IMG/VR virus record: IMGVR_UViG_3300050821_004476
Span: 1 to 38,631 of that record
From: a virus
DNA length: 38,631 bases
Strand: one strand, 5' to 3'
Numbering within the stretch: position 1 is the first letter of the stretch; the number at the start of each line of letters is the position of its first letter. Below, piece by piece: positions 6,333 to 25,542 of the stretch. A program made the position numbers and the translations under genes. The notes beneath the pieces are model-generated. The model saw only the letters and a list, made by a program, of their open reading frames with translations, did no database searches and was not told the origin of the DNA.

Positions 6333-9300
6333 TCAATTAGGAGAAACGCTAGCCAATATACCATATATAAACTTAGCGTGATCGTCGTCTATACTCCATC
6401 GATGGCCTCCTAATATTCCTTCCATTCCCGTAGAGACTAGTTCAAAGTGAGGATAGTAGTTAGGCTTACCGTCTCCTGTTAGCCCGTTATAGATACGTCC
6501 TGTGTAAGATCGTCTAAACTCATCCTTAATCATCTCTACCTTTCCTCCCCGTATAGTACCTTCTATGATCGGTTTTTCTTCCGGTTTCATACGAGACTCT
6601 AGATACTTTCTCTCTAACAATCCTAGTCTCGGAATAGTATGTTCCGCAGCGTGACCTAGTTCGTGTACCGCTGTAGCAAAAGCTCCTTCCAAAGAGTTTT
6701 TATCTTTATCATGAGCTACGGCTACTACTACCTTACCAGAACTAAATCCGTCAAAGAATCCTCCAGCATCTCCTACATCTTTAGTAGCGTGTATTTTAAG
6801 ATCAGCTATCTTGTTTGCCCATTCTTTAGGATAGGATTGAGCAGCGTTATCTAGTAGTTCCTTAACTTCAGTATGTCCGCTATGTCCTACGGTCTTCTCC
6901 GTCCCAAAGTCTCGAATTTGAGTTAGAGTATTAAAGACCGCTTTCTGTTGTAGTTGTTCTCCGTTATGAGCTTTATTAAAGTTTCTAATAGTCTCATAAG
7001 CTTCTTCCTCTTTTACTTCTAGCTTCTTACGCTTAGCTTCAGACTTAGCGGCATAAAGAGCTTTTGTAGCCTTCTCTACATTATCCTTTAGCTCTGTTTT
7101 CTTTTCTAAGTAGGCTTTTAGTTCCGGATGGTTCATTACCTCTTTATGTATTAATTCTCCTATCTCTTTCATCGCTTCCGGGTCAGTGTGAAACATTCCA
7201 CTCTTATGATGAACTTTGTTTATCTTATCCCAAACAGCGTGAGTAAAAGGAGTAGGAGTCCCGCTAAACGAGATACCTACTGGAGCTTTTCTATCCGAAG
7301 TATGATGAGGAAGGGTAGGATAAGACGGCTTAGATTCTAGCTTAGCCGGAGTAGGAGCGAGAGTAGCGGTATTCGATCCTTTCTCTACTATGTTCTTGAG
7401 CTTAGCGTAGACTCTACTCAAATTACCACTGCCAAATCTTCCTCTCGAATCTCTCGGCTGACCCGGATAATTTTCCACGTACTCATTAAATAGAGGGTTA
7501 GGGTAGTTACCCTTTGTAACTTCTAAATCCCCACCTACCCAACTAGACTCTTTCCTCTGTTCCGCTAGTGATACACCTTCCGGAGCTTCTCTACGTAGTG
7601 ATAGGTCAATAGCTTTTCGGATCTTAGCGGGAGTACGTTTCTGTCCTTCTGTACTCTCACCTAAGTTAGCAGGCACAGGGCAACACATGCACGACGGATG
7701 ACGAGGAAACATTCCTCTAGCTTGAGCTATTGTTAATACTACTCCGTTAAGAGGAGCACATATCTTACAAGGAACCATATAAGGTTTACCCGCCTTAGCT
7801 CTCCTTCGTCCTCTTGCTTTAGCTTGAGATAACCTTTGGTTAGCTCTTGTACTCTTCTTAGCTTTGGGAACTACTAGATGAGGGTAAGTAGTTCTCCACT
7901 CTATCATTACATTAAGTTGATCTACTCCTAGAGCTTCAAGAGAGTCTAGCGTTGCTTCATTATGGGCTCTCGCCGTATTTCCGGTATAATAGTTATCTAT
8001 CGTAAAATACCCGTGAGGAGTTTCGAGGTTATAAACATGCCCAGAATATTGACTAGTGCGGATAGAGACTATATTGCCGAGCTTTACTTGAGTGGACTCA
8101 CTCAGAGACAGATTGTCGATACTCTCGGATTCTATTATGAGGACGGGATTAGAAAGGTTTTGAAGGAAATGGGGATTCTTAGAAGTCGCTCTGAGAGTTT
8201 GTTGCTCTCTAAGAGTAAGGGAAGGAGTAAAATTTTCCGATATGACATTAACGCCGATGAGATTGTCGATAGGTATATCGCAGGCGAATCCCTCACCGCT
8301 TTGGCCTCTAGTCTCAGTATAGATGTCGATGTTATTAAAACTCGGTTGAGAGATAAAGGTGTTCCTTTGCGTACTAGAACAGAGGCAATGTCGTTTGTCG
8401 ATAGAGAGAAGACCGGAACAGGTGCTGCAAAAAGACGAGCGAGAAAGACCGGATGGGGTGAAGACGTTCTCCATAATTGGTTTATTGAGAGGGGAGAAAT
8501 CCCCGATGCTCAATTCCCTGTTGGTACAAAAAATATCGACATTGCTATTCTCCCTTCCGTCGCCGTGGAAGTCTGGACCGCTAACAATTTTCCTTTCAAC
8601 TATGCCGAATGTACTAATAGAATCAAATATCTCGCTAATAGGGGTTGGACATCTATTTATGTTCACGTCTCCGGCAACCCTCGTATCCTTCTTCCCGTTG
8701 TGGCCGATGAGATTGTCTCCTTGCTTGAGAAGACCCGCAGATACCCATCCCTCTTGCGTAAGCATAGGGTGATTAGGGGTTGTGGTGAATACGCTGCCGT
8801 CTCTGACTTTGATCTCAACGACTGGACCGCTATACCACCGTCTAAAAACTGCCCTTATCACCGCCGAATCCACAAGAGTGTCCGGAAGTAAACATTCTGT
8901 TCTAGCTATCGTGTTTGCTCTATTTATTCCTATCCCTAGTTGTTTATTTATTTCATTACCTATATCTTTTGGTCCTAATCCTTGCGCTACTCCATCCATG
9001 AGAGTCCTAGTAAGAACTTGACTCATAGTGTCTGTTACGCCCTGTAGCTCATTAAACGTTCTAGCTGCTAAGAGTTTGATTTTCTCTTTAGTCTCCGGCT
9101 GTCCGAACGAGCTACGTAAGAATTGTTCTCTAGGCTCATTGTAGAAGTCTAGCGACTTACTTAAGTCTTTAGGTCTTTTCTTATCTACTTCATCGAACGC
9201 TCTCCCTTGACCTTTCTTGTAAGCGTCCGCTATGTACTTATCCCACCAACGGTCTTCATCGCCTTTAACTATGTACTTCTTAACTTGAGTTCCTAGCCAT

Positions 9301-9632
9301 TGTCTAAAGGCTTGAAGCTTCTGCTCATCGGTATGAAATGAGAATCTAGTGTTTAGAGTAGTAACACCGCTCAATCCAGGGACATGAATACCTGGTTCGA
9401 TACGTCTCTCTAGTTGTTTTAGGGCTAGGTTTACCACGGTGTTACTGTCGCGAGCAATCTCCGAATAACTCAAAATGCTAGACTTGTTAGGTACTAGTCC
9501 GAAAGCATCTTCCTCTACTATGAGCTTATCTATCTCTTGTTTGAGAAGACTAAACCTCTTAGCAATTTCTTTTATGAAAGCTTGCCTTATAAAACCGGTT
9601 CTCGTTGGGTCTAGTTTAAGAGGATTAGTCAA
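6333..9632 (-). CDS. Mu gpF-like minor head protein with intein and C-terminal zinc metallopeptidase
   Basis: The precursor is 1099 residues. N-extein (1-246) and C-extein (553 on) join as ARTE + TARAHNEAT, the signature motif of Mu gpF/SPP1 gp7 head-morphogenesis proteins. It is followed by CKICAPLNGV and FPRHPSCMCCPVP (about residues 625-650), the usual metal-site Cys/His pattern. An intein occupies 247-552. After a linker VENYPGQPRDSRGRFGSG (719-736) come a charged coiled coil (about 835-885) and a zincin domain: AVHELGHAAEH with HELGH at 990-994, and FELVSTGMEG supplying E1064 as likely third ligand. The spliced product would be 793 residues. Family members are minor capsid proteins; the peptidase may process virion proteins or act in the host cell. 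The start overlaps the upstream gene by 8 bp. Confidence 0.88.
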   Translation of the reverse strand: MTNPLKLDPTRTGFIRQAFIKEIAKRFSLLKQEIDKLIVEEDAFGLVPNKSSILSYSEIARDSNTVVNLALKQLERRIEPGIHVPGLSGVTTLNTRFSFHTDEQKLQAFRQWLGTQVKKYIVKGDEDRWWDKYIADAYKKGQGRAFDEVDKKRPKDLSKSLDFYNEPREQFLRSSFGQPETKEKIKLLAARTFNELQGVTDTMSQVLTRTLMDGVAQGLGPKDIGNEINKQLGIGINRANTIARTECLLPDTLVDSAVIRAVFRRWYSGPVVEIKVRDGSVFTTTPNHPMLTQEGWVSAGLLKQGDNLIGHNGKKDTRVAGDVNINRCPTPISEIFDSISTFGIVERKIVSGPDFHGDGRENSNVDIFCTNRELSIGDFSPLNKPIMENVFTPSGLSRSSFCSTCSGLLSIDKRHCLCSSTQRNTFISQPSFNNIDIYTETRGQSGEGFACDIPIDNLIGVNVISENFTPSLTLREQQTLRATSKNPHFLQNLSNPVLIIESESIDNLSLSESTQVKLGNIVSIRTSQYSGHVYNLETPHGYFTIDNYYTGNTARAHNEATLDSLEALGVDQLNVMIEWRTTYPHLVVPKAKKSTRANQRLSQAKARGRRRAKAGKPYMVPCKICAPLNGVVLTIAQARGMFPRHPSCMCCPVPANLGESTEGQKRTPAKIRKAIDLSLRREAPEGVSLAEQRKESSWVGGDLEVTKGNYPNPLFNEYVENYPGQPRDSRGRFGSGNLSRVYAKLKNIVEKGSNTATLAPTPAKLESKPSYPTLPHHTSDRKAPVGISFSGTPTPFTHAVWDKINKVHHKSGMFHTDPEAMKEIGELIHKEVMNHPELKAYLEKKTELKDNVEKATKALYAAKSEAKRKKLEVKEEEAYETIRNFNKAHNGEQLQQKAVFNTLTQIRDFGTEKTVGHSGHTEVKELLDNAAQSYPKEWANKIADLKIHATKDVGDAGGFFDGFSSGKVVVAVAHDKDKNSLEGAFATAVHELGHAAEHTIPRLGLLERKYLESRMKPEEKPIIEGTIRGGKVEMIKDEFRRSYTGRIYNGLTGDGKPNYYPHFELVSTGMEGILGGHRWSIDDDHAKFIYGILASVSPN
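7985..7990 (+). promoter_or_regulatory. Possible -10 box for the antisense endonuclease gene
   Basis: A perfect TATAAT on the plus strand lies 47 bp before the endonuclease ATG and about 34 bp before its ribosome binding site. On the other strand these bases encode the Tyr-Tyr near the intein C-terminus. No good -35 box is seen at 17 bp spacing. Confidence 0.3.
8037..8891 (+). CDS. Putative homing endonuclease encoded antisense inside the intein
   Basis: This is the only convincing plus-strand gene. From the ATG at 8037 it encodes 284 residues; GAGG sits 9 nt upstream, while the longer frame back to 7962 has no such site. Two helix-turn-helix-like units (5-48 and 70-118) resemble resolvase-type DNA-binding modules. 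A nuclease-like core follows: E142 (GWGEDVLHNWF), D168 (NIDIAI) and E178 (VAVEVW), with GWTSIYVHV after it. This fits a PD-(D/E)xK/Vsr-like fold with W where K is usual. The last 60 residues are basic and oppose the intein N-terminal block. Codons face those of the intein exactly. It uses GTC, GCC and ATC more than the phage genes do, pointing to separate origin. Presumed role: cutting intein-free alleles to spread the intein. Confidence 0.78.
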   Translation: MPRILTSADRDYIAELYLSGLTQRQIVDTLGFYYEDGIRKVLKEMGILRSRSESLLLSKSKGRSKIFRYDINADEIVDRYIAGESLTALASSLSIDVDVIKTRLRDKGVPLRTRTEAMSFVDREKTGTGAAKRRARKTGWGEDVLHNWFIERGEIPDAQFPVGTKNIDIAILPSVAVEVWTANNFPFNYAECTNRIKYLANRGWTSIYVHVSGNPRILLPVVADEIVSLLEKTRRYPSLLRKHRVIRGCGEYAAVSDFDLNDWTAIPPSKNCPYHRRIHKSVRK

Positions 9633-23698: not shown

Positions 23699-24256
23699 TT
23701 ACGGGACGGGTAGTAATCCTTTCGTTTCGGTAGTCATAAGCTTAGAGATGTACTCTCTCGCCTTATCGTAGCCATAAGCGTGTATCATTTTATCTCCTCT
23801 CGTAACATCTTCCTGAGAGAATAGACTATCAGCTGAATTCTCTATATCAGATCCGCTCCAATCTATAACTATGACTCGCTTTCTCCAACCGATAGTAATT
23901 GGTCCTCTAGTAGTTGTTACTATCAGCCAAGGAGTAGTAAACCCATAGTGACTTTCTCCCCAATACTTGTTAGAAATGACTTTGTAGTAGATAGGACTAG
24001 GGAAACAAGCCTTAAGATCCTCAATTGTCTTTTGTCTCTCTTTGATATTATCAGGATGGTTTTCTTCTTTAGATTTGAATATGTCCCGTTGTATAGCTTC
24101 TACGTACTTATTAACTGTCCCCTGCTCTTCTTCAGTTAGCTCTACTCCCGCTACTAAGATTTTGATACCTAAGTACGTGAACCCCGAAAAGTTTCCCCAA
24201 GTCTCGTACTTCGCTACTTCTTTGAATAGAACTTCCTTAGTTTGTGGCTCGCTCAT
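23699..24256 (-). CDS. Hypothetical protein, 185 aa
   Basis: A soluble alpha/beta protein with no motif I can name. The middle is helical (NKYVEAIQRDIFKSKEE) and the second half beta-rich and aromatic (YWGESHYGFTTPWLIVTTTR, ITIGWRKRVIVIDWSGSDIE). It overlaps the stop of the glycosyltransferase-like gene by 1 bp, so it may work with it. Confidence 0.6.
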   Translation of the reverse strand: MSEPQTKEVLFKEVAKYETWGNFSGFTYLGIKILVAGVELTEEEQGTVNKYVEAIQRDIFKSKEENHPDNIKERQKTIEDLKACFPSPIYYKVISNKYWGESHYGFTTPWLIVTTTRGPITIGWRKRVIVIDWSGSDIENSADSLFSQEDVTRGDKMIHAYGYDKAREYISKLMTTETKGLLPVP

Positions 24257-25542
24257 TACTTCCTCTTGTAAATAGAGAACTGTTTAGTCTCAGACACTAA
24301 CTCATAGTCATTCTTAAGCTCTTCTACGTACTCCGAAAACTTTCCGCAGCCTTGCATACTAAACCAACTATGTACTTCTACGATAACTTCCGGTGTCTCT
24401 AGATTCTCAATCGCTTCTATTTGATATTTCTCCTTAAGATTCGTATCGAGAAATAGAGGATACATTATATCAAATCTCGTAGCACTAAATCTTCCTGAGT
24501 AATAGAGTATCTCCGGTTCCGATCCCATAATGAGAATCTTGTCGTTAGGACTCGTTAAGCTCTTGACCTTAAAGGCTACTTCTTTAGCTTCGATGAACGG
24601 CTGGTCTCCATAAAGCTTAGGAGCTACGTTAGGCTCTATGAGTAAGTCCCAAGATTGATAGAGACTTCCGATGACTAGCACAAGAGTTATTAGAGGTCTA
24701 GTGTACTTTGACTTCTCAAGTCCTCTATGCTCTAGATAGGCTAAGAACTTCTCTACCCCATTACCAGCCGAGATAGCGATGAACGGAATCGCTAAGAGAT
24801 AGTAGTGAGAGTAAGGAGAAGCAGCGGTACAGAACAGAGCTACTAGAATGAGATAAGACGGGGAGAGACAGCCGAATAGTACAGCCATCCAATACGTGAA
24901 TAGGATAGCCTCTACGTTCTGTTCAAAGTACACGAACTTAAGATGATGAGAAGCTACGTAAGCTTGATTGAAGTAGTAAGTACAGTCGAGTAGCTTATCG
25001 TCTCCTAGAAATGGTCTAAGAATCGCGAACGATGTTATTGAGAAGCTAGAAGATAGTTCTAAGAATTCCTTCCAACTGTAACGTCGTTGTAAGAGGATAC
25101 AGAACACTATCGGGATGGCCGTGTACTTATACAAGATAGTAATCGCTGCTAATCCTCCTAGCATTAACGTAGTATCTCTTCTCTTAACAAGTACGTACAT
25201 TAGGACTATCGGGAGTATCATAAACTGCTCTACGTTAGCCGAACATTGCCCTAATCTCGGCATTAAGAGTAGAGTAGGAAGTAAGAACATAGAGCAAGTG
25301 TTAGACATGAGTAGAGCAGCTAAGAAGTGAGAGATTATCATAACGATTCTAGCGTCACCTAGACAGTACGTGTAGATAATCATTGGAGGCTTTTGTAAGA
25401 AGCTCTCAGTATAGGGAGTATGGCCCGAGAGTAAGAGTTGAGCCGAGTAAGCGTACTCTCCTTCATCTCGCATTAGAGGGATAAAGAGAGTGTTCCAATG
25501 AATAGCGACGATGTAGAGAGCGAGTAGAATGGGACGTTTCAT
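24256..25542 (-). CDS. Membrane glycosyltransferase-like protein, GT39/ArnT (GT-C) type
   Basis: A 428-residue polytopic membrane protein with about ten hydrophobic segments. The first loop has PLMRDEGEYAYSAQLLLSG (22-40) and then QKPPMIIYTY, the GT-C pattern in which the Asp-Glu pair after the first span is catalytic and the KPP motif binds the lipid-phosphate donor (PMT/ArnT family). A soluble C-terminal part follows (PNDKILIMGSEPEILYYSG). It would transfer a sugar from a polyprenyl-phosphate donor to an envelope target. In phages such genes usually change host surface sugars, blocking superinfection. The donor cannot be told from sequence. Confidence 0.72.
   Translation of the reverse strand: MKRPILLALYIVAIHWNTLFIPLMRDEGEYAYSAQLLLSGHTPYTESFLQKPPMIIYTYCLGDARIVMIISHFLAALLMSNTCSMFLLPTLLLMPRLGQCSANVEQFMILPIVLMYVLVKRRDTTLMLGGLAAITILYKYTAIPIVFCILLQRRYSWKEFLELSSSFSITSFAILRPFLGDDKLLDCTYYFNQAYVASHHLKFVYFEQNVEAILFTYWMAVLFGCLSPSYLILVALFCTAASPYSHYYLLAIPFIAISAGNGVEKFLAYLEHRGLEKSKYTRPLITLVLVIGSLYQSWDLLIEPNVAPKLYGDQPFIEAKEVAFKVKSLTSPNDKILIMGSEPEILYYSGRFSATRFDIMYPLFLDTNLKEKYQIEAIENLETPEVIVEVHSWFSMQGCGKFSEYVEELKNDYELVSETKQFSIYKRK

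Follow-up and report, generated by a model that had tools for sequence, protein, structure and literature searches.

How an intein that carries no endonuclease in its own frame could nonetheless have moved, and what is encoded on the strand opposite to it, is the question raised by this locus. The window analysed is the whole of an IMG/VR virus record of 38,631 bases. On its minus strand, a Mu gpF-like head morphogenesis gene (6333-9632; PHROG 758 head morphogenesis, 3.7e-34) forms an ORF of 1099 codons that stays open through an intein of 306 residues (7977-8894), which separates the N-extein (8895-9632) from the C-extein (6333-7976). The intein is inserted at IARTE/TARAHN and its splicing blocks A, B, F and G are complete, as it displays the first residue Cys of block A (8892-8894), TPNHP of block B (8766-8780), GHVYNLE of block F (8022-8042), a final Asn at residue 306 (codon 7977-7979) and Thr at the +1 position. 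It is matched by the Pfam family Intein_splicing (PF14890, 5.6e-8) and by the NCBIfam intein N-terminal model (TIGR01445, 8.6e-6). The gpF of the Halorubrum phage Hardycor1, uninterrupted at the junction (IARTETIRAHNEA), aligns without a break to the joined exteins across IARTE/TARAHNEA, showing that the host protein is continuous once the intein is removed. The host gene is not split: in the window, and likewise in relatives, one sense ORF runs through it. Additionally, the GC skew is positive over the intein and negative in its flanks.

Entirely within the intein DNA, a gene of 284 codons lies on the plus strand (8037-8891), from an ATG at 8037-8039 to a TAA at 8889-8891, and is predicted to encode a homing endonuclease. 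The original prediction had described such a gene opposite the intein, with both frames staying open, and had placed it at 7962-8894. The 284-codon gene and the two uninterrupted frames were borne out, while the start at 7962 proved to be an upstream in-frame ATG. The frames are codon-opposed, such that sense position 1 faces antisense position 3 and position 2 faces position 2. The antisense stop codon lies opposite intein residue 2 (Leu, TTA), block B faces the antisense RVIRG, and the His codon of block F faces the antisense ATG.

AlphaFold2, run with an alignment of 43 sequences, modelled the plus-strand product (pLDDT 81.6) as two helix-turn-helix (HTH) domains joined to a nuclease core of alpha-beta type. 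The first HTH (8055-8168, plus strand; model residues 6-43) resembles the DNA-binding domain of GcrA in VIA-align (Z 7.3), with Pfam HTH_38 detected in homologs, and the second (8253-8354; residues 72-105) corresponds to Pfam HTH_58. The core (8448-8777), supported by conservation, is of predicted Vsr/EDxHD type. Its top ranks in VIA-align were Vsr (Z 11.5 and 11.0), I-Bth0305I (3r3p, Z 10.9) and 3hrl (Z 10.4), and the nuclease profile matched the catalytic domain of I-Bth0305I with an E value of 3.8e-6. The nuclease assignment is owed to VIA-align and the profile search, since Foldseek alone returned nothing below E 0.001 against the PDB; the window protein by itself gave weak matches, to HTH families only. 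A full-length structural match was obtained in BFVD (A0A3G3BXE8, 297 aa, E 5.5e-12). An alignment of 12 sequences displays a constant order of a starting Met-Pro, one or two HTH units, a linker, E...NxD...VAVE...R and Y-x-V-I-R-G. In the nuclease alignment D167 and E177 are invariant and E141 and R194 exceed 90%, the conserved core residues of the window being encoded at 8460-8462 (E), 8538-8540 (D), 8568-8570 (E) and 8619-8621 (R). A GGxWH motif follows E141, D167 and E177 in many members, not in all, and the window is without it. The model and the profile thus agree with the HTH units and the Vsr-like core that had been proposed from the letters, and the plus-strand product is predicted to combine two HTH domains with a Vsr/EDxHD nuclease.

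It may be argued that the antisense frame is a shadow, kept open by codon usage and by constraint on the sense amino acids, with nothing made from it. The codon-opposed frame is the easiest one for long antisense ORFs, above all at high GC, and in some GC-rich loci other parts of the gene are open antisense over long stretches as well; however, the frames are open at 34-46% GC too. We collected 104 loci by the nuclease protein, a few of them by the sense intein, and in all 104 the nuclease is faced by a host frame that stays open for 415 codons or more. Antisense stops within the profile match were found at its C-terminal end, save a few outside the gene proper. Blocks were mapped in 66 loci; from block B to block F, these contain no antisense stop in 14,387 codons, where a shadow frame would be expected to have about 289, against 387 in 19,256 codons of the exteins. 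The middle of the window intein has none against 14.9 expected from how codons are used in the exteins of this gene, which excludes chance openness (P about 2e-7; p-values in this study are nominal, as loci were treated as independent though related phages are not).

Codon-position differences also speak against a shadow. They were counted in six close pairs of relatives' loci, the window itself having no close relative for such pairing, by nuclease or by N-extein, in the viral contigs. In the middle, differences at sense positions 1, 2 and 3 numbered 325, 83 and 183 (1265 codons), compared with 245, 148 and 559 in the N-exteins of the same pairs (1318 codons), 18, 7 and 47 in blocks A-B, and 4, 7 and 27 in blocks F-G. 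The most variable sense position in the middle is therefore the first, which is the wobble position of the antisense strand, whereas the exteins and the splicing blocks behave normally. Read antisense, the middle has wobble-to-first and wobble-to-second ratios of 1.8 and 3.9, and the N-exteins read in sense have 2.3 and 3.8; moreover, antisense amino-acid identity in the middle exceeded sense identity in every pair tested. These position-wise differences indicate that selection acts on the antisense gene in the middle and on the sense protein in the blocks.

A further alternative is that the sense middle is itself functional, as a reduced endonuclease or a linker domain, with both proteins equally selected. 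The middle was first suggested to be a real domain by a match to PHROG 15127 (5.8e-30), and the FHGD and VDVV motifs that produce this match are conserved. Nevertheless, FHGD faces the catalytic VAVE of the antisense protein and VD(I/V) faces its NxD motif (NxDxA), so that the conserved pair is best explained as a shadow of the antisense core, and we rejected it as a sense domain. AlphaFold2, run on 26 sense inteins, folded residues 1-66 and 270-306 into the two HINT halves, mostly with pLDDT above 90, and Foldseek found the Mtu RecA inteins as best matches of the model; residues 126-264 remained below 50 nearly throughout, mostly at 25-45. No nuclease family was matched in the sense middle by Pfam, PHROG or NCBIfam, and there is no in-frame endonuclease domain, in keeping with the initial reading of intact splicing blocks with no endonuclease motif. 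With sense identity always the lower there, with ratios that resemble those of a coding strand when read antisense, and with this low model confidence, a selected sense domain is very improbable; the codon-position test and the model speak against the domain suggested by PHROG. The sense middle is best explained as a read-through spacer.

To what extent this layout is shared was examined from both strands. A tblastn search with the antisense protein matched 41 phage records, with identities of about 27%; where genes are annotated, the matches coincide with head or MuF-type genes, to which they run antisense in the loci fetched. An unbiased set was assembled from viral contigs by the sense block-F pattern GHVY[DN]LQT, which is blind to the antisense strand, and gave at least 120 loci. 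Among the matches listed, 94 distinct loci extended far enough upstream to be examined, and all of them had the antisense nuclease; an antisense run of at least 200 codons was present in 90 of 91, with a median of 255 codons. Comparatively, canonical phage inteins from the same collection, found by the pattern VYDLTV[DE]..HNF (GHVYDLTV, tried as a control pattern, had no match), displayed the nuclease in 0 of 78 and antisense runs with a median of 21 codons, at least 200 codons long in 0 of 72. Jerseyvirus inteins, considered as nuclease-free negative controls, were rejected on account of their antisense gene, which had gone unmatched at first because the window protein is too distant. Neither the 104 loci found by the nuclease nor the 94 found by block F included a related middle with a broken plus frame. 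In the phage records, in the viral contigs and in some 790 genomes of bacteria, full-length homologs were found only antisense within inteins; in the bacterial genomes, no free-standing full-length homolog was found and the matches were single-domain, Vsr/DUF559-like. The layout is, with high probability, a widespread and unannotated form of mobile intein.

The expression signals of the antisense gene are written into blocks F and G. For example, sense CAT GTT TAT AAC CTC GAA (HVYNLE) reads antisense as TTC GAG GTT ATA AAC ATG, which provides a Shine-Dalgarno sequence, a spacer and a start; in the window, the GAGGT (8025-8029, plus strand), recognised from 71 aligned initiation regions, is opposite the Asn-Leu-Glu of block F. 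Across loci, the block-F His faces the start codon and Asp/Asn-Leu-Gln faces the Shine-Dalgarno sequence. The codon facing this His is ATG, GTG or TTG in 63 of 71 loci; in the block-F set, ATG or GTG faces it in 104 of 104 among the matches listed, the pattern itself requiring the His. For the block-F Leu, CTC is used in 59 of 67 loci, compared with 26% in the same genes (nominal p 1e-26), and in 90 of 99 among the matches listed of the second set, against 6 of 96 control inteins.

A comparison of offsets relative to the antisense start across loci brought out conserved -10 and -35 sites as well. Of 70 loci, 23 had a perfect TATAAT at one of two offsets, 12 at -51 and 11 at -32, whereas the mean over offsets is about 0.1. 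Loci of the -32 class also have TTGACA at -55, separated by a spacer of 17 nt and perfect in nine cases; those of the -51 class mostly have an extended -10 (TGn). The codons chosen at these sites are unusual, with Leu as TTA in 12 of 16 (against 12%), Ser as TCA in 12 of 13 (against 17%) and Ile as ATA in 15 of 23 (against 19%). In 95 further loci outside the first set, perfect hexamers were again found, 20 at -51 and 9 at -32, and the control inteins had none at these offsets. The window harbors a perfect, predicted -10 hexamer at 7985-7990 (plus strand), in the same offset class as in relatives, with a weak -35 (3/6); a scan of the window for consensus promoters and terminators found nothing. 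No recognisable -10 was seen in 34 of 70 loci, many of them from GC-rich contigs. Judged by sequence, a sigma-70 -10 is present in the synonymous sites of blocks F and G in about half of the loci, with a -35 also in a subset. Such signals placed in synonymous sites, the antisense wobble position, the predicted nuclease fold and the lack of an antisense gene in every control intein leave the shadow reading exceedingly improbable.

Evidence for mobility comes from the comparison of related phages. Between the E. coli phage Snoke and the Salmonella phage BPS11Q3, identity is 69.9% in the N-extein, 95.2% in the intein and 83.5% in the C-extein, changing abruptly at the N junction, and intein-free sisters of the two exist in SZH-1 and SS7. 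By these identities, the element is one that was recently transferred between phage genera. Most members are inserted at HPN/CRC of gpF, and the window at IARTE/T; by eye, the host of one locus (L005) looks like a dCMP deaminase and that of another (L095) like a prohead protease. It could still be that the antisense protein functions in another role than homing, for instance in regulating the head gene, harming competitor phages or excluding superinfection. Two HTH domains could serve the DNA binding of a regulator, and free-standing phage nucleases do act in the exclusion of competitors. However, the near invariance of the catalytic E-D-E, together with the patchy presence in close relatives, the several host genes and the recent transfer between genera, fits a homing element better, and such another role appears unlikely.

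The reading that we consider highly probable is that of a mobile mini-intein with its homing endonuclease gene on the opposite strand of the same DNA, and with expression signals for that gene. Computation supports it through the two open frames, the selection pattern of each, the fold prediction, the signals conserved across loci, the transfer between genera and the intein-free sister alleles; that the gene is transcribed, the intein spliced out and the empty site cut, and that the element homes, we infer. The termini (blocks A-B and F-G) would form the sense splicing domain, and the middle would be the nuclease gene, through which ribosomes on the sense transcript read as through a stop-free spacer. 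From the precursor so made, the intein would fold from both ends and splice out; the penultimate residue of the window intein is Gly rather than His, which counts against this explanation by putting the efficiency of its splicing in doubt. Blocks F and G would perform double duty, their synonymous codons supplying the Shine-Dalgarno sequence and the start of the nuclease, and in about half of the loci a -10 too, so that the nuclease could be translated from a putative antisense transcript. The HTH domains would then bind and the nuclease cut the intein-free allele, with repair copying the whole element in; cleavage and copying are suggested by the family membership and the transfer pattern. 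More speculatively, and with the odds somewhat against it, the host sigma-70 promoter, Shine-Dalgarno sequence and start embedded in blocks F and G might let the nuclease be made before or without head-gene transcription and be switched off by the late sense transcript, giving a large class of phage inteins in which one stretch of DNA serves as two genes timed apart.

With reference to known systems, canonical mobile inteins with in-frame LAGLIDADG or HNH endonucleases likewise have HINT blocks A, B, F and G, a nuclease nested between the halves and homing mobility (which is inferred here), but here the nuclease is a separate protein on the opposite strand, with its own start, stop, promoter and Shine-Dalgarno signals. 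Split inteins with free-standing endonucleases ('fractured genes'), which are Vsr-like enzymes, also associate a separate endonuclease gene with an intein; in those, the host gene is divided into two ORFs, whereas the present intein is uninterrupted and has the endonuclease gene on its opposite strand. The Vsr mismatch-repair endonuclease is a stand-alone gene without an HTH array, unlike the present one with its two HTH domains nested in an intein. I-Bth0305I, the EDxHD enzyme of phage 0305phi8-36, shares the catalytic fold (predicted here) coupled to DNA-binding modules, but it is a group I intron enzyme, and here the gene is antisense in an intein with two HTH domains first. The ShiLan-type insertion, an out-of-frame HNH in a phage DNA methylase that spreads horizontally, likewise hides an endonuclease in an open host frame of a phage gene, yet it is read from the methylase transcript, with no splicing domain and no detectable Shine-Dalgarno sequence (PMC11855218). 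In the Didymium L2066 group I intron, an antisense His-Cys homing endonuclease gene, I-DsqI, has been shown to be expressed and active; as here, the gene is antisense in a self-splicing element, but that element is an RNA in eukaryotic rDNA and its opposite strand needs no open protein frame (PMC9548176).

The remark that no standard example of this layout is known holds for inteins and not for homing genes at large: no earlier description of an antisense endonuclease in an intein was found in the literature searched, which included no preprints and few subscription journals, and as far as it shows the architecture is new for mobile inteins, antisense homing genes as such being known from group I introns (PMC9548176). 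The standard picture, in which the endonuclease of an intein is an in-frame domain or the neighbour of a split intein, is changed, and phage inteins that moved without an in-frame endonuclease are accounted for. Moreover, the locus is a strong example from nature of two proteins that overlap fully in antisense; each strand has separate tests, the control group is clean, and expression signals are carried by synonymous codon positions of catalytic motifs. The finding also points to a new source of predicted EDxHD-like site-specific nucleases, and implies that a gene is missing from the annotation of in the order of 130 deposited phage records.

Several minor observations were made along the way. 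The locus with the dCMP deaminase-like host (L005; 616-1968 of KX853510.1) is annotated 'putative head morphogenesis protein' though its exteins read dCMP deaminase-like (PCVA/CAKR), and the annotation seems to derive from the intein. In L095, the same intein class sits in what by eye resembles an HK97-type prohead protease (SLVDRPANSD/C...HN/CRID), a third kind of host gene. Two loci from Gordonia phages (L071 and L080) have near-identical exteins, with 17 third-position changes in 220 codons, and clearly more diverged inteins, which suggests that one intein may have been replaced by another at the same site. In the window, the gpF-like C-extein (6333-7976, minus strand) contains a HELGH motif (AVHELGHAAEHT), which suggests a zincin-type metallopeptidase-like domain fused to gpF; the Pfam search gave no family for this C-extein. 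Lastly, the ORF at 24256-25542 (minus strand), whose product is by appearance a multi-pass membrane protein, has a positive GC skew despite being on the minus strand like its neighbours.
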